From the NCBI RefSeq assembly GCF_037975215.1, contig NZ_CP150239.1:782001-846000 (forward strand): a stretch of 64,000 nucleotides of DNA. Reading direction: 5' to 3'. This stretch comes from Solibacillus sp. FSL R5-0449 (GTDB taxonomy: Bacteria > Bacillota > Bacilli > Bacillales_A > Planococcaceae). Made by a program: the position numbers and the translations under genes. The notes beneath the pieces were generated by a model that saw nothing but the letters and a program-made list of their open reading frames with translations, had not been told where the DNA came from and made no database searches. Position 1 is the stretch's first letter. Every line of letters starts with the position of its first letter. Of the stretch, positions 22,293 through 61,151 are shown piece after piece.

Positions 22293-23864
22293 ATGACTTT
22301 AGAACAAGATATATTAGCGCGTCGTACATTCGCCATCATCAGTCACCCGGATGCTGGTAAAACGACGATTACAGAAAAACTACTATTATTCGGTGGTGCG
22401 ATTCGTGACGCAGGAACAGTAAAAGGAAAGAAGTCAGGTAAGTTTGCGACATCTGACTGGATGGAGATCGAGAAACAACGTGGGATCTCGGTTACTTCTT
22501 CTGTTATGCAGTTCGATTACTCAGGCTGCCGTGTAAACATTCTGGATACACCTGGACACCAAGACTTCTCGGAAGATACGTACCGTACGTTAATGGCTGT
22601 AGACTCGGCTGTCATGGTAGTCGATGCGGCTAAAGGGATCGAGGCCCAAACATTAAAGCTATTCAAAGTTTGTAAAATGCGCGGTATTCCGATTTTTACA
22701 TTTATCAATAAATTGGACCGTCAAGGGAAAGAGCCGTTGGAACTTATTGAAGAATTGGAAGAGGTTCTTGGTATTAACGCATACCCGATGAACTGGCCGA
22801 TTGGTATGGGGAAAGAGTTCCTGGGCATTTACGACCGTTACAACAAGCGTATCGAGCAGTTCCGAGTAGAAGAAGGTGACCGCTACTTGCCACTTGATGA
22901 AGAAGGACATTTAGCTGTTGATAACGATATGAAAAAAACATCGTATTATTCACAGGCAATCGACGATATCGAACTTCTGAATGAAGCTGGAAATGAATAT
23001 TCAGAAGATAAAATTGCTCGTGGTGAATTGACACCGGTATTTTTCGGATCGGCATTAACGAATTTCGGTGTACAGACATTCCTTGATACGTATTTAAAAT
23101 TTGCACCGATTCCTCAGCCTCGTATTACGGAAGATGAGCAATTTATCGATCCTGTTGATCATGGCGAATTTTCTGGATTCATTTTCAAAATTCAAGCGAA
23201 TATGAACCCGGCACACCGTGACCGTATTGCATTCGTGCGTATCGTATCAGGTAAATTTGAGCGCGGTATGAACATGACACTTTCACGTACAGGTAAATCG
23301 TTCAAAGTGACACAGTCAACACAGTTCCTTGCAGATGATCGTGAAACAGTAAATGAAGCTGTTGCTGGTGACATTATCGGTCTTTATGATACAGGTACGT
23401 ATCAAATTGGAGATACGGTAGTCGGCGGCAAGAAAACATTCAACTTTGAAAAATTACCTCAATTCACACCTGAAATTTTCATGAAAGTTTCGGCGAAAAA
23501 CGTAATGAAAGGGAAGCAATTCCAAAAAGGTGTGCTGCAATTAGTACAAGAAGGCGCAATTCAGTATTTCAAAACAATGCATACTGAAGAAGTAATTCTT
23601 GGTGCGGTTGGTCAATTACAGTTTGAAGTATTCCAGCACCGAATGATTAATGAATACAATGTAGAAGTAATTATGCAGCCGATTGGCAGCAAAATTGCAC
23701 GTTGGATTGAAAACGAAGAAGATGTGAAAGATTCAATGCATTCTCAGCGTTCAATGCTTGTGAAAGACCGTTTCGATAATAAAGTATTTTTATTTGAAAA
23801 CGAATTTGCGATGCGCTGGTTCTCTGAGAAAAACGAAAACATTCAATTATACAGCTTACTATAA
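22293..23864 (+). CDS. prfC: Peptide chain release factor 3 (RF3)
   Basis: 523 residues. It is a translational GTPase that recycles RF1/RF2 after termination. Motifs are G1 SHPDAGKTT, a switch II/G3 region DTPGHQD, G4 NKLDR, and the RF3-specific [10 protein letters not shown] start and [12 protein letters not shown]. The AAAGGAG ribosome site lies 9 bases upstream. It is monocistronic, followed by a strong terminator and then repeat array A. Confidence 0.96.
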
Positions 23865-23921: not shown

Positions 23922-23961
23922 GCATTTTGAGGGAATGAGGGTGTCGTGAGCAGGGCATTTA

Positions 23962-24235
23962 TTAGAAGTTTTAGACTGAAATATAGAAAAGAAAAAGCGA
24001 AAAGTAGAACTCCCCGGTGTCAAAGTAGAATGTTTTGACCGAAATGTGGAACGAAATAGAGAGAAGTGGAACCCGAAAATTTATTATAAGTTTACGAATT
24101 AAATGTAGAAAGTAAAGAGAGAAAAGTAGAATGTTTTTAGGGGAAATTGGAACTATTCATCCGGAAAGTAGAACAAAAGTGTGAAAAAAGAGAACCGGGT
24201 CCGGATATTAGAATAGTTACGATAGAAAGCAGAAC
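23962..24235 (+). repeat. 21-bp periodic GTAGAAC array (copy A, 14 units)
   Basis: A 7-base core, mostly GTAGAAC or TTAGAAC with single changes, starts at 23962, 23983, 24004, 24025, 24046, 24066, 24084 (weak), 24105, 24126, 24147, 24168, 24189, 24208 and 24229. Ten of the 13 steps are exactly 21 bases. The 12-14-base spacers differ but often end GAAA. A G-rich header (about 23930-23957) follows the prfC terminator. No continuous reading frame runs through the array. It fills the space between convergent prfC and the NRDE gene. Copies B and C are at 44352 and 60338. Confidence 0.88.
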
Positions 24236-24266
24236 TCCTTCCCGGTCTCCGTTATTTGCCAATCAC

Positions 24267-42109: not shown

Positions 42110-44284
42110 ATGACAATGAATATGGAAAAGGATCCGATTTTTGATCCGGAGCATGTGGACATTGAAAATAATCCTGATTTTTGCAACGAGCTGCTTGTGG
42201 AAATTGCGAAACCCCAGTATTACAATAACCGTGAACTAAGCTGGCTCGCATTTAATGAACGAGTATTGGAAGAAGCGGAAGATACAAACAACCCGTTGTT
42301 GGAACGGATGAAGTTTTTGGCAATATTCAGTTCCAATCTGGATGAATTTTTCATGGTACGGGTTGCGGGTTTACAGGACCAAATTCGTGCAGGCTATCAT
42401 AAGCCGGAAAATAAATCAGGTTTAACTCCAAAAGAACAGCTGGCGAAAATCGCCGAGCGTACACAGGCATTGGTCAGACGCCAAACAGAAGTTTACCGCC
42501 ATTTAGTGCATGAACTGCTACCGAAAGAACATGTGCATATCGTTGATTTGAAAATGCTGAATGAGCAAGAAAAAAGTTATATCAATGAATTGTTTGAAGA
42601 AACAATCTTTCCTGTACTTACACCAGTTGCGGTAGATGCCTACCGTCCGTTTCCTACATTATTGGGACGTACACTCAACTTGTTTGTCATGCTGGAAAAC
42701 AACTGTGAGGACACGGAAAATTGTATGGATAAAGTAGCGATTGTTCAAGTACCGTCCGTATTGAACCGCTTTATTAAAATACCGTCAAAAGACAAAAAGA
42801 CGTTATTTGTATTGCTGGAGGATGTCATTTCAAGTAATATTGACCGTTTATTTTTAGGCTATAAAGTAAAATCGACACAAGCATTCCGGTTAACGCGAAA
42901 TGCGGATTTGACCATCCATGAGGAAGGCGCACAAGACCTGTTAGTGGAAATCGAAAAAGAACTGAAAAAACGTAAATGGGGTGCGGGTTCACGCCTGGAA
43001 GTACGTGACGGCGAGATGAATGATGATGTACTGGATTATTTACTGGACGAATTTGAACTTGGGGAGTCCGATGTTTTCAAAATTGACGGCCCGCTCGACT
43101 TAACGGCAATGTTCAGTTTTGTAAAAGAGATTTCAGTAGGACGGGAACATCTGGAGTATGAAAGTTTTATACCGCAGCCTCCCCAAGATTTACAATCGAA
43201 CGAAAATATTTTTGAAAAAGCATTAATCCAGGATATATTTTTCCATCATCCGTACGAATCATTCGGACCGATTGTCGATTTTATCGCAGAAGCAGCAGAA
43301 GATCCAAGTGTATTGGCGATTAAGCAAACGCTATACCGGGTAAGCGGAAATTCGCCGATTATCCAGGCGTTGAAGCAGGCGGCAGAAAACGGTAAACAGG
43401 TGACGGTTTTAGTGGAGTTGAAAGCGCGTTTTGACGAGGAAAATAATGTGCATTGGGCAAAAGAGCTTGAACAAGCAGGGTGCCTTGTCATTTATGGCAT
43501 GAATAATTTAAAAACGCACTCAAAGATTACACTTGTTGTCCGTCGACGGAATGGAAAAATTGAACGCTTTGTACATTTAGGGACCGGCAACTACAATGAT
43601 GCTACCGCAAAAATCTATACGGATATGGGGATTATTACATCGCATAAGGAGTTTGGTATAGATGCGACAAACTTCTTTAATTATTTAAGCGGTTATACTG
43701 ACAAACCTGAATTCCATCATATTGTCGTCGCGCCTTTTGATATTCGGGATGAATTCCTCGAGTTAATCGATAAGGAAATAGCGCTACATAAAAAATATGG
43801 AAACGGGTTTATCCGGGCAAAAATGAATTCCTTAACCGACAAGGATTTGATGATGAAACTTTATGAGGCGTCGATTGCCGGCGTAAAAATCGAGCTGATT
43901 ATTCGTGGGATTTGCTGTCTGCGTCCCGGCATCCCGGGAATCTCCGAAAATATAACCGTTTTGAGCATTGTGGGCCGTTTCCTGGAACACTCGCGGATTT
44001 TCTGGTTCCATCATAACGGTGAGGATAATCTCTACTTATCTTCTGCAGATATGATGACACGAAATATGATTAAACGTGTGGAAATACTGTTTCCGATTTA
44101 TTCCCCGGAAATAAAATACCGGATCCAGCGTATTATGCTGCTTCAAATTAAAGATAATCAAAAAGTACGTATCCAGGACTCCAATGGGAAATACCACTAT
44201 AAAGAAGGCTCCCACCATGATGAACGGATTAACAGCCAGGAGATTTTTTTGGCCGAATCACTCGGCCCGATTATCGAAGAATAG
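42110..44284 (+). CDS. ppk: Polyphosphate kinase 1
   Basis: 724 residues, full length for PPK1. It has N-terminal YYNNRELSWLAFNERVLEEA, and a phospholipase-D-like catalytic core with the autophosphorylated His in NLKTHSKITLVV (about residue 465) and FVHLGTGNYND. It polymerises ATP gamma-phosphate into polyphosphate. It is translationally linked to ppx. A hairpin terminator and then repeat array B follow. Confidence 0.94.
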   Translation: MTMNMEKDPIFDPEHVDIENNPDFCNELLVEIAKPQYYNNRELSWLAFNERVLEEAEDTNNPLLERMKFLAIFSSNLDEFFMVRVAGLQDQIRAGYHKPENKSGLTPKEQLAKIAERTQALVRRQTEVYRHLVHELLPKEHVHIVDLKMLNEQEKSYINELFEETIFPVLTPVAVDAYRPFPTLLGRTLNLFVMLENNCEDTENCMDKVAIVQVPSVLNRFIKIPSKDKKTLFVLLEDVISSNIDRLFLGYKVKSTQAFRLTRNADLTIHEEGAQDLLVEIEKELKKRKWGAGSRLEVRDGEMNDDVLDYLLDEFELGESDVFKIDGPLDLTAMFSFVKEISVGREHLEYESFIPQPPQDLQSNENIFEKALIQDIFFHHPYESFGPIVDFIAEAAEDPSVLAIKQTLYRVSGNSPIIQALKQAAENGKQVTVLVELKARFDEENNVHWAKELEQAGCLVIYGMNNLKTHSKITLVVRRRNGKIERFVHLGTGNYNDATAKIYTDMGIITSHKEFGIDATNFFNYLSGYTDKPEFHHIVVAPFDIRDEFLELIDKEIALHKKYGNGFIRAKMNSLTDKDLMMKLYEASIAGVKIELIIRGICCLRPGIPGISENITVLSIVGRFLEHSRIFWFHHNGEDNLYLSSADMMTRNMIKRVEILFPIYSPEIKYRIQRIMLLQIKDNQKVRIQDSNGKYHYKEGSHHDERINSQEIFLAESLGPIIEE

Positions 44285-44292
44285 TGATTTAG

Positions 44293-44325
44293 AAAGCTAT
44301 GGACAAAATGTTCGTAGCTTTTTTT
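44293..44325 (+). terminator. Terminator after ppk
   Basis: AAAGCTA pairs with TAGCTTT, followed by a run of T's. Confidence 0.78.
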
Positions 44326-44351
44326 AGTGGTGTGGCGGGGGAGGAGATTTA

Positions 44352-44522
44352 TTAGAACAATTCAGCAGGATATTAGAACAAAGGAGAGGGTTTTTAGAAA
44401 ATATGAAGCTGATATTAGAACAAAGTACCAACATTTTAGCACATGTTAAAGATATATTAGAACATCGCAATTTTATTAGAACAAATAAATTTATATTAGA
44501 TAATTTTTCGTTTTATTAGAAA
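44352..44522 (+). repeat. 21-bp periodic TTAGAAC array (copy B, 9 units)
   Basis: Cores start at 44352, 44373, 44394, 44415, 44436, 44457, 44476, 44496 and 44516: TTAGAAC with TTAGAAA, TTAGCAC and TTAGATA variants. The steps are 21, 21, 21, 21, 21, 19, 20 and 20. A G-rich header (GGTGTGGCGGGGGAGGAG) lies between the ppk terminator and the first unit. No open frame crosses it. The layout is the same as copy C at 60338. Confidence 0.9.
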
Positions 44523-44645
44523 ATCTGAACTGACCGCTCCACTGAAAGTAAGGAAATGCGATATTAATAAAAGAAATATCCGTATAAAACAGAAAAAATA
44601 ATATATTAGTATTTATTTCACCTCTATTATAGTAAACTCTATTTA

Positions 44646-44663: not shown

Positions 44664-44685
44664 ATAGACAAAGGGGATGAATAAA

Positions 44686-45453
44686 ATGTTACAAGGCAAA
44701 ACGATTATCATTACAGGTGGCTCTAGCGGGATGGGGCTCGGTATGGCTAAGCAGTTCGTGAAAGAAGGGGCAAATGTTGTAATCACAGGACGTGATTTGG
44801 AACGTTTAGCTGGTGCAAAGAAGGAAATAGAGGTGTTCGGCTCATCAATTGAAACATTTCAGATGGATGTTCGGGAACCGGAACATGCAGAAGCAATGGT
44901 GGCATTTGCGGCAGAAAAGTTTGGTCAAGTAGACGGCTTAGTGAACAATGCTGCAGGGAATTTTTTAGTGCATGCAGAAAAGCTTTCGCCGAATGGATGG
45001 AAAGCTGTTATTGATATTGTGTTGAACGGTACATTTTATTGTACTTCTGCCATTGGTCGTTATTGGATTGAAAATGGTATGAAAGGTTCGATTATTAACA
45101 TGGTTGCTACATATGCCTGGGGTGCAGGAGCTGGCGTGATTCATTCAGCTGCCGCAAAAGCCGGGGTGCTCTCGCTGACACGTTCGCTTGCGGTTGAATG
45201 GGGAGGCCAATATGGAATCCGTGTAAATGCCATAGCACCGGGTCCGATTGAGCGCACAGGCGGGGCAGACAAACTGTGGGAATCTGAAGAGCAAGCGAAG
45301 CGTACATTGGATTCTGTACCGTTAAAACGTCTTGGCACACCTGAGGAAATAGCAGATCTAGCGGTATTTATGTTATCGGATAAAGCAAATTATTTAAACG
45401 GGGAATGCATTACTTTAGATGGCGGACAATGGCTGAATCAGCACCCGTTTTAA
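44686..45453 (+). CDS. fadH: 2,4-dienoyl-CoA reductase (FadH/YkuF, SDR family)
   Basis: 255 residues from ATG 44686; GGGG lies 8 bases upstream, whereas ATG 44677 abuts it. SDR motifs TGGSSGMGLG (residue 12), NNAAGNF and a late HSAAAKAG active-site region are typical of dienoyl-CoA reductases, which lack the standard YxxxK spacing. It reduces double bonds of polyunsaturated acyl-CoAs during beta-oxidation. The upstream FadR operator supports this. Confidence 0.9.
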   Translation: MLQGKTIIITGGSSGMGLGMAKQFVKEGANVVITGRDLERLAGAKKEIEVFGSSIETFQMDVREPEHAEAMVAFAAEKFGQVDGLVNNAAGNFLVHAEKLSPNGWKAVIDIVLNGTFYCTSAIGRYWIENGMKGSIINMVATYAWGAGAGVIHSAAAKAGVLSLTRSLAVEWGGQYGIRVNAIAPGPIERTGGADKLWESEEQAKRTLDSVPLKRLGTPEEIADLAVFMLSDKANYLNGECITLDGGQWLNQHPF

Positions 45454-59491: not shown

Positions 59492-60262
59492 TTGAAGAAA
59501 ATATTATTTTTTGATGTAGACGGCACTTTATACAATTCAGATAAAAAATTGCCTGCTTCTGCAAAGGAAGCGATATTCAAGGCACGTGAAAACGGTCATG
59601 AAATTGCGATTGCAACAGGACGTGCACCATTTATGATAAAAGATATACTGGAAGAGCTTGAAATCGATACATATGTGACATTTAACGGGCAATATGTTGT
59701 CTATCAGGGGAAAGTCGTGTATACCGATCAGATTGACAATGAAACTTTAACGGAAATCCTGGAATTTGGTGCACAGCGCAATCATCCGTTAGTATTCCTG
59801 AATGAAAAGGAAATGATCGCGACTGAAAGCGATTATGAAAGTGTGGAAAGCAGTTTAGCAACACTTCAATATCCATATCCGCAAATCGATCCGCAATACT
59901 ATTTGCACACACCGGTGTATCAAACACTTGTATTTATAGAAGAAGAGGAACAGCCAATTTATGAACAGCAGTTCCCGCAAGTTCAATTTATCCGTTGGCA
60001 TCCTTTCTCATGTGATGTACTGCCAGCCGGTGGTTCAAAAGCAAACGGCATCCGAAAACTGCTGGAAAAAATTAATTTCCCGGTTGAAGATGTTATTACA
60101 TTTGGCGATGGATTGAATGACATTGAAATGCTGTCAGAGTTTGGGTATAGTGTCGCGATGGAAAATGGTCATGAGAGGGCAAAGGAAGCAGCTTCAATGA
60201 TTACAGGACATGTGGACAATGGCGGCTTGGCTGACGCGATGAAGAAATTAAAGTTAATATAG
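59492..60262 (+). CDS. ykrA: HAD-family Cof-type phosphatase (YkrA)
   Basis: 256 residues, TTG start 7 bases after AAAGGAGCG. Motif I FFDVDGTLYN (residue 6), motif II ATGRA and motif IV GDGLNDIEML (about 206) are intact, with a C2B cap of Cof type. It dephosphorylates small phosphometabolites, perhaps flavin or sugar phosphates. It lies between rpoY and def as in B. subtilis ykrA. Repeat array C follows its terminator. Confidence 0.9.
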   Translation: MKKILFFDVDGTLYNSDKKLPASAKEAIFKARENGHEIAIATGRAPFMIKDILEELEIDTYVTFNGQYVVYQGKVVYTDQIDNETLTEILEFGAQRNHPLVFLNEKEMIATESDYESVESSLATLQYPYPQIDPQYYLHTPVYQTLVFIEEEEQPIYEQQFPQVQFIRWHPFSCDVLPAGGSKANGIRKLLEKINFPVEDVITFGDGLNDIEMLSEFGYSVAMENGHERAKEAASMITGHVDNGGLADAMKKLKLI

Positions 60263-60277
60263 TAGAACAATAGAAGA

Positions 60278-60309
60278 AACGTTGTGGAAAATTTTACACA
60301 GCGTTTTTT
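60278..60309 (+). terminator. Terminator after ykrA
   Basis: AACGTTGTG pairs with CACAGCGTT (one G-T pair), followed by seven T's. Confidence 0.82.
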
Positions 60310-60337
60310 TGTTGTGGGAGTAGGGCGCAAGGTTTTA

Positions 60338-60508
60338 TTAGAACAATGTAAGCGGTTATTTGATAATCGGTTAACGATATTAGAAAGAATGGAAAGGATT
60401 TTAGAACATCGGACTGACATTTTAGAACAATTGAAAATTATATTAGAAGATCTCATTTTTATTAGAACATTTACACGGATATTGGAACATTTTCAATTTT
60501 ATTAGAAG
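60338..60508 (+). repeat. 21-bp periodic TTAGAAC array (copy C, 9 units)
   Basis: Cores start at 60338, 60359 (TTTGATA), 60380, 60401, 60422, 60443, 60462, 60482 and 60502, giving steps of 21×5, 19, 20, 20, identical to copy B. Most cores are TTAGAAC or differ from it by one base. The G-rich header GTTGTGGGAGTAGGGCGC follows the ykrA terminator. The array ends before the terminator of convergent def. No open frame crosses it. Confidence 0.9.
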
Positions 60509-60546
60509 TTTCAAAATTAAAACGACTTTCTTCTATAGTAACTTAT

Positions 60547-60593: not shown

Positions 60594-61151
60594 TTAGTCT
60601 CTTCCGAATGGAATGCTGTTTTCTAACTGGATGAACGGGTCTTTTTCATCGATGCGATCATAGAACATAACGCCGTTTAAATGATCAAGTTCATGTTGGA
60701 ACGCGATTGCAGGAAGTCCTGATAAACGCATCTTCTTTTCTTCGCCGTCCACTGCCATAAACTTCACAGTGATGCGTGCATAACGATAGACATAACCGGG
60801 AACGGCACGGTCTACTGACAGGCAGCCTTCACCACTTGTTATATAAGTCTGTTCGACAGAATGGCTGACAATTTTAGGGTTAACTGCGACAAAGCTGAGC
60901 AGTTCGCCGTTTTCGTCTTCCAAATGCAGTGCAAACATACGTTTTAAACTGTTTACCTGGTTTGCAGCTAAGCCGATACCGCCACGTAAATTATATTTTT
61001 CAGCAATTTCAGGATCTTGGCTATTAATTAAATATTGCAGCATATCATCTGCGAGTTGTCGATCTTCTGCAGATAACGGAAAAGTAACTTCCTCCGCGCG
61101 GGTGCGTAATGTAGGGTGTCCTTCACGGATAATATGTTCCATTAAAATCAT
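60594..61151 (-). CDS. def: Peptide deformylase
   Basis: 185 residues. The three deformylase motifs are complete: GIGLAANQ (motif 1, about 60), GEGCLS (motif 2, Cys metal ligand, about 110) and QHELDHLNG (motif 3, metal-binding His pair and catalytic Glu, about 153). It removes the formyl group from nascent proteins. This is the DefB/YkrB type, next to pdh as in B. subtilis. Ribosome site AAAGGAAG. Confidence 0.95.
   Translation of the reverse strand: MILMEHIIREGHPTLRTRAEEVTFPLSAEDRQLADDMLQYLINSQDPEIAEKYNLRGGIGLAANQVNSLKRMFALHLEDENGELLSFVAVNPKIVSHSVEQTYITSGEGCLSVDRAVPGYVYRYARITVKFMAVDGEEKKMRLSGLPAIAFQHELDHLNGVMFYDRIDEKDPFIQLENSIPFGRD

Follow-up and report, generated by a model that had tools for sequence, protein, structure and literature searches.

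The architectural proteins Noc and MatP each act at dozens of dispersed sites (NBS and matS, respectively), which are single palindromic sites. Iteron and centromere arrays of plasmids occupy one or a few loci together with their own par or rep gene, and some plasmid iteron arrays have a spacing near two helical turns. In the accessible part of one published account, plasmid centromeres consist of tandem iterons around which a protein-DNA helix is built, pSM19035 having sites of 9, 7 and 10 iterons, and the parC of R1 is split in two with its middle looped out (PMC5016525). As far as the accessible text of the sources goes, the BIME-2 of Enterobacteria are gyrase-binding and might play a part in organising the genome (PMC6379681), and REPs are palindromes in alternating orientation (PMC2817692). 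The BOX, RUP and SPRITE repeats of Streptococcus pneumoniae were judged parasitic, with extensive secondary structure, in the portion of the source available (PMC3049150). Among the papers listed by our literature searches, none describes the arrays analyzed here. Two of them, B and C, lie in a window of 64,000 nucleotides, the whole stretch of DNA covered by the initial annotation, which belongs to the 3.58-Mb genome (labelled G000) of a soil bacterium, probably a Solibacillus.

Arrays B and C and the family they belong to

The two arrays, their units and their neighbours are the following.

42110..44284, + strand: polyphosphate kinase gene (Pfam PP_kinase domains), upstream of array B
44295..44325, + strand: intrinsic terminator 3' of the polyphosphate kinase gene, aimed into array B (by eye and by terminator scans)
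44326..44348, + strand: G-rich stretch from the terminator to the first unit of array B
44349..44525, + strand: array B, nine units; site occupied in 6 of 16 genus genomes
44352, 44373, 44394, 44415, 44436, 44457, 44476, 44496, 44516: unit starts of array B
44677..45453, + strand: short-chain dehydrogenase/reductase gene, downstream of array B
59492..60262, + strand: HAD-family hydrolase gene, upstream of array C
60278..60310, + strand: intrinsic terminator 3' of the HAD hydrolase gene, aimed into array C (by eye and by scans)
60335..60511, + strand: array C, nine units; site occupied in 6 of 16 genus genomes
60338, 60359, 60380, 60401, 60422, 60443, 60462, 60482, 60502: unit starts of array C
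60594..61151, - strand: peptide deformylase gene, convergent, downstream of array C

Exactly as the initial annotation had it, B (from 44352) and C (from 60338) each comprise nine units with steps of 21, 21, 21, 21, 21, 19, 20 and 20 bp. Their profile-scan scores are 131 and 121, respectively, against a peak of 17.6 among 40 shuffled strands of the window. The terminator before array B reads by eye as a hairpin AGCTA...TAGCT followed by a T-run, and the polyphosphate kinase gene is present in all 15 genus genomes searched. The heptamer TTAGAAC, annotated as a largely kept core, is intact in five of nine units of B and four of nine of C; the conserved core is better described as A or T, then TATTAGAA, then C, G or A. 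By itself TTAGAAC is mildly enriched in the window (16 occurrences versus 9.35 expected, with 3 of 100 shuffles equally high), and the non-random feature is the ordering of the units.

A tail signature made of three units at steps of 19 and 20 bp, with up to three mismatches allowed, gave 53 matches in the G000 genome, 32 forward and 21 reverse, and the reversed tail pattern gave zero. Profile chaining of the fetched loci yielded 87 blocks with 629 units, of which 53 are arrays with the 19-bp step; the reversed (not complemented) sequence of all examined loci yielded zero arrays. Neighbouring arrays were grouped into elements, whose total is, coincidentally, also 53. An extra upstream block (block 1), mostly of four and sometimes of three or five units, occurs in 29 of the 53 elements, namely 28 multi-block elements and one that was chained through (327423). 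B and C consist of block 2 only.

Random unit counts and spacing in other copies had been named in the annotation as evidence against its proposal. Instead, 48 of the 53 arrays share the inner steps 21, 21, 21, 21, 19, 20 and fall into four patterns, in which the first and last step alone vary between 20 and 21: 21 are identical to B and C, 13 end in 21 rather than 20, 11 combine an initial 20 with a final 21, and 3 start with 20. The remaining 5 are single variants, and one of the 53 arrays has two 19-bp steps. The identical irregular tail of B and C had been taken to mean that they derive from one ancestor. Common descent of the copies is indeed supported by a spacer identity between paralogs of 42%, versus 26% expected from composition, but the tail belongs to the whole family. 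A similar correction applies to the spacers of units 6 and 8, which are alike between B and C as noted (70% and 55%), yet this likeness is nothing special to the pair, since unit 6 spacers are alike family-wide (all-pairs mean identity of 54% for unit 6 and 43% for unit 8). Over all spacers, B and C are 54.7% identical, which ranks at the 93rd percentile among 1378 pairs; C has its closest relative in B, and B itself has closer kin elsewhere.

Array sites range over 0.13-3.40 Mb of G000. One region of 0.75 Mb (1.87-2.61 Mb) contains just one array, the others being spread over the remainder, and GC skew, sampled at the loci, flips sign between 1.57 and 1.71 Mb, before this array-poor region. 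Seven elements, six of them in + orientation, form a dense cluster within 43 kb (2688898-2731012), which surrounds genes for chemotaxis receptors and very large ORFs resembling, by eye, a peptide-synthetase cluster. No ORF of this cluster (2.69-2.73 Mb, 2.723-2.727 Mb excluded; three proteins profile-scanned) resembles a binding protein by eye. Local tandem duplications of elements were also observed in G000 (313525-314315, 1078191-1078843 and 1155184-1155829) and in the genome G101 (2538984-2539764), with periods of 235-236, 345, 338 and 367 bp.

Core conservation, helical phase and descent

Equal divergence of core and spacer was the other observation named beforehand as evidence against selection on the core. 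Orthologous arrays of genomes G126 and G101 were compared with G000 in 45 pairs, which are not all independent because they involve 27 distinct G000 arrays; L257 and L282, with no usable counterpart, and four registers with no partner above ~60% identity were excluded. Mean identity over 160 positions is 0.88. Divergence is 4.1% in cores (132/3240 positions) versus 19.2% in spacers (760/3960), a contrast mildly biased by an array-finding profile that prefers conserved cores, and the core is the less diverged part in all 45 pairs. By unit, core divergence is lowest in unit 6 (0.5%) and in units 5 and 7 (1.5% each), and is 3-8% elsewhere. The same contrast is seen over six genomes for array B (core 7.4%, spacer 19.6%) and array C (core 8.3%, spacer 31.1%), the flanks of both diverging by 18-35%. 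Judged by these alignments, purifying selection acts on the cores at orthologous sites, and constraint is strongest in units 5-7, which surround the 19-bp step. Step patterns are the same in 38 of 48 ortholog comparisons and differ in 10; genome G132 has deletions of 42 bp in B and of 3 bp in C.

Selection on helical phase, also proposed in the annotation, is supported by the quantised lengths of the linkers between blocks. The 34 linkers measure 50 (2), 60 (1), 71 (5), 72 (3), 81 (17) or 82 (6) bp, clusters spaced by roughly one helical turn. Some of the linkers stem from tandem duplicates and do not count as independent. The phase concentration of the six values has p ~5e-5 against six random values from 50-82. 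Over all units, phase coherence is maximal at 10.3 bp per turn (0.875). The tail steps 19, 20, 20 depart from a strict 21-bp phase and fit only the mean of ~10.3 bp per turn, and whole-element tandem copies 345 or 367 bp apart are not separated by whole turns at 10.3.

A base shift within the core sets two genomes, G048 and G013, apart from the others. Core position +4, the first A of GAA, is C in 27 of 85 units of G048 and 17 of 62 of G013, versus 23/615 in G000, 8/312 in G126 and 11/337 in G101; units within an array are not independent, and part of the G048 and G013 arrays was covered. Arrays with at least one such C make up 8/10 and 6/6 in G048 and G013, versus 17/82, 6/44 and 10/43 in G000, G126 and G101. 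TTAGCA thereby replaces TTAGAA in ~30% of units versus 3% (L168-L175, L048, L049, L054, L055, L059). By the HAD protein (80 and 79% versus at most 74%), G048 and G013 form the nearest outside group, and PPK does not separate them; they are probably close kin, and the shift may be one event. Because it is spread over many dispersed loci, the shift suggests a changed trans-acting recognition protein, for which such a pattern would be expected.

Among the genomes searched, the tailed arrays were found in one genus. The annotation had suggested searching other Bacillales. A search of the order, which covered 261 genomes, all listed under one family, found the tail pattern (up to two mismatches) in 8 of 16 genus genomes versus 0 of 245 family genomes outside the genus; the reversed tail control over the 261 genomes gave one match, in G114. 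The six genomes with B and C at the same sites are all six of the clade, and in the other ten genus genomes neither B nor C was seen in the stretch of 420 or 340 nt that follows the same gene. Simple arrays, with six or seven units spaced at 21 bp and lacking the 19-20-20 tail, occur in S. palustris, G114 and G120, of which G114 or G120 may be the same organism as S. palustris.

L100:4040-4200: simple array without tail, S. palustris and relatives
L046:1438-1565: simple array without tail, S. palustris and relatives

One of these two lies behind an enolase terminator, the other between a gene that looks ArsR-like by eye and another gene; G000, too, has an array at that place behind enolase. 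The simple array may predate the tailed form, which would then have spread in one lineage.

Most fetched loci correspond between species. We selected 40 stretches from the 51 (G126) and 58 (G101) tail matches, and 38 of them match a G000 array locus in their flanks, one weakly (70 bits). Eight loci were picked from the 39 tail matches of G048 and G013 (18 and 21), and seven of these match G000 array loci on the array-adjoining side or sides, two pairs hitting the same G000 locus. Seven further loci came from the same species, some of the loci being the same places sampled through two collections: two (L059, L102) match G000 array loci beside the array, L060 matches only ~6 kb away, L055 matches over 101 bases, and L048, L049 and L054 are without a match.

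Likeness between dispersed copies extends in several cases beyond what the family average would give, the all-pairs mean identity being 61% in the array and 29% in the preceding stretch. Between the arrays at 1529152 and 2660944 identity reaches 90%, with 80% in the preceding 70 nt, and together with those at 2878453 and 2880766 they form a group (85% in the array, 57-61% in the preceding 70 nt). The copies at 281669 and 500722 are 87% identical in the array and 56% in the preceding stretch, the likeness of 367794 to the 1078 kb copies (84-85%) is limited to the array, and, besides the pair 1529152/2660944, seven dispersed array pairs are 84-87% alike. That pair is about as similar in G126 and G101, with one exception, the stretch ahead of block 2 in the second copy of G101; this places the copying before the species split. 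To go by these identities, whole elements did disperse in the past, through mobility or ectopic copying. The ortholog is less similar than some distant paralog in 3 of 45 pairs, and no distant paralog is closer in the other 42, on which ground gene conversion between dispersed copies was rejected as a general cause.

We also rejected a viral, plasmid or phage origin. The tail pattern had no match in viral contigs, a looser pattern hit 78 stretches, none with an array on rescan at score 45, and blastn of one element against plasmids and phages found nothing.

Surroundings and a second array type

Most elements have a terminator beside them. A terminator-like hairpin with a T-run on the left is aimed into the element in 31 of 53 cases versus 22 of 265 letter-shuffled flanks, and one on the right in 21 of 53 versus 12 of 265; at least one terminator is aimed into 45 of the 53 elements, and none was detected at 8. 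The first unit stands a median of 23 nt from the left T-run. Orientation towards the neighbouring genes is not strict. By mechanical calling, which yields some spurious ORFs, 40 of the 53 elements have the end of a co-directional ORF (80 aa or longer) 5-260 nt upstream (median 75 nt), the nearest upstream ORF is co-directional in 42 and opposed in 11, and an ORF ends towards the array from the opposite side in 29. The neighbouring genes bear no functional relation to one another (enolase, RecA, ribosomal S1, PPK, thiolase, transporters and chemotaxis receptors), and no common functional class is apparent among the scanned proteins. No par- or rep-type protein was found among the 39 scanned, mostly upstream neighbours; 5 of 30 in one subset had no profile match at the thresholds applied.

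Base composition at the edges is skewed. The 20 nt before the first unit contain 34-40% G and 9-14% C over the 53 elements, and on the array strand G and C stand at 0.40 and 0.09 in the 10 nt before the array and C and G at 0.40 and 0.14 in the 10 nt after it; the 10-20 nt after the last unit are C-rich on that strand. At the 53 G000 elements a G-rich strand thus enters the array from both sides.

The window also contains an array of a second type.

22293-23864: peptide chain release factor 3 gene, followed by a terminator-like hairpin and then the array
23957..24240, + strand: second-type array, unit AAAGTAGAA at 21 bp, with modules opened by a TTATTAGAAG-like unit

In G000, AAAGTAGAA at 21 bp gives 108 triple matches, against zero in the control, at 15 loci or more, including the one in the window. 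Modules repeat by eye at ~124 bp (122 in the window), and ~124 bp is also what separates units 1 and 7 of block 2. In a set of 200 family genomes, the second type has 26-85 matches in G000, G048, G083, G101, G132 and G138, all of which carry the first type too; G126 has one match and G013 none. The second family is thus abundant only in genomes that also carry the first. Eight genomes of other genera have 1-4 matches, which look like coding repeats, and the reversed control gives 1-4 in a similar number. On a Chitinophagaceae contig (L116:6769-6960), ten profile-matching units stand at 21 bp, perhaps again as a coding repeat.

Proposed role and comparison with known systems

Very probably the arrays act as sets of sites in DNA. 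From their sequences we infer that a protein binds them and does so cooperatively, and on balance, at slightly better than even chances, we read them as phase-locked binding-site arrays for a putative DNA-binding protein, probably architectural or boundary sites. Each unit would span about two helical turns, one taken by the specific core TATTAGAA and one by a mostly free, rather G+C-rich spacer. The nine units of block 2, with or without upstream units across a linker of nearly whole turns, would present their cores in register at ~10.3 bp per turn. Since the sites number a fixed 9 (or 4 + 9) and the linkers are close to whole turns, the bound protein would form a single cooperative nucleoprotein complex of fixed geometry. 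The position of most elements directly behind intrinsic terminators would offer a berth with little transcription, from which the complex would not be swept off, and there it would insulate the adjoining transcription units and/or anchor or constrain the DNA. Taken by itself, the boundary or architectural role is the least certain part and is advanced tentatively; counting against it, the place behind a terminator is also a safe spot for any intergenic element. As to role, we think that a boundary or architectural one is the most likely and a centromere- or anchor-like one the next.

Sites of the latter kind would give a protein of segregation or membrane anchoring its hold on the chromosome, much as the sites of ParR/parC, omega/parS or Noc do. 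Known centromeres usually comprise one or a few loci, whereas these arrays are spread over 0.13-3.40 Mb; the 39 scanned proteins, a subset of the neighbours, include no par-type protein, and adjacency to terminators is left without explanation. We hold this reading to be unlikely, even though it accommodates iteron-like direct repeats of fixed number and phase and the many dispersed sites, and finds a precedent in plasmid centromeres of tandem iterons with their protein-DNA helix, as the accessible part of the source describes them (PMC5016525). Mobile or MITE-like copies, inserted behind terminators in an ancestor and now mainly drifting, would account for the common ancestry of the copies, for the likeness of dispersed copies even in the preceding 70 nt (80%, and 57-61% within the group), for amplification limited to the clade, for the location behind terminators and for the empty B and C sites in ten genomes. 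Drift is contradicted by the contrast between core and spacer, cores staying conserved at each site while spacers diverge. Most fetched sites are moreover common to the species, 42 of 45 pairs have no closer distant paralog, and neither a terminal inverted repeat nor a transposase was noticed on casual inspection. Copying may explain the origin of the elements, not their upkeep, and as a full account such drifting copies seem improbable.

That the array acts as RNA, as an attenuator, a sponge or a structured 3' UTR, is brought to mind by the 40 of 53 elements in which it follows a gene in sense direction. The array is mostly behind the terminator, however, B and C fold no better than shuffles (z +0.49 and +1.71), and the linker lengths are quantised by the DNA helix. 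No clear covarying stem emerged in 47 non-redundant arrays, the top scorer lying in the last unit, where steps of 20 or 21 bp spoil the register, and there was no Rfam match at gathering score in window positions 23500-62000. We regard an RNA role as very improbable, and give still less credence to a short heptad-repeat protein with ILEQxxx repeats in the TTA-GAA frame. By eye, that frame is open for ~50 codons in B and C; it is open over units 2-5 in 32 of the 53 arrays, and block 2 has 25 stops versus 32.9 +- 4.9 expected. Block 1 has 23 versus 19.2 +- 3.6, both counts being close to chance, and by eye some B orthologs carry in-frame stops and no start codon precedes B. Coding is rejected because of these in-frame stops and because the steps 19, 20, 20 and the linkers of 50-82 bp break the frame.

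Returning to phase-locked sites for a DNA-binding protein, a wider system is conceivable, which we offer as a speculation with rather less than even chances. The chromosome of one Solibacillus lineage would be divided into domains by a clade-specific organising system, in which a dedicated DNA-binding protein of co-evolving specificity would assemble complexes of fixed geometry on phase-locked arrays of 9 or 13 sites at ~50 terminator-shadowed positions, alongside a second array type with a sister specificity. We know of no system with such a layout. If true, this would be a bacterial interspersed repeat in which selection is seen to act on geometry and not on sequence alone, and in whose linker lengths the DNA helix itself can be measured. 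It would also provide a testable case of a sequence-specific architectural protein and dozens of dispersed multi-site targets arising and co-evolving within one genus, and a test of whether dedicated boundary elements behind terminators are in use among bacteria.

Among known repeats, the REP/BIME of Enterobacteria likewise form dispersed intergenic arrays. In contrast to these, the cores here are short, asymmetric and all direct, in fixed number and helical spacing, and the core TATTAGAA is non-palindromic. With the BOX, RUP and SPRITE repeats of Streptococcus pneumoniae, the arrays share the nature of clade-restricted small interspersed repeats in a Firmicute; unlike them, no RNA structure was found here and the cores are constrained site by site. 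As for mobility, past dispersed copying is visible, yet 38 of the 40 fetched loci are common to the species. Noc/NBS and matS/MatP resemble the present case in having dozens of dispersed sites, here for one putative protein, and differ in that the arrays described here are phased and contain 9-13 units. With plasmid centromere and iteron arrays (parC-ParR, parS-omega and replication iterons), in which protein and DNA wrap according to the accessible part of the source (PMC5016525), they share direct repeats and many units. They also share direct repeats in helical register, with steps of 21 (five times), 19, 20 and 20 bp and quantised linkers; unlike plasmid iterons, they are 53 dispersed chromosomal arrays beside unrelated genes.
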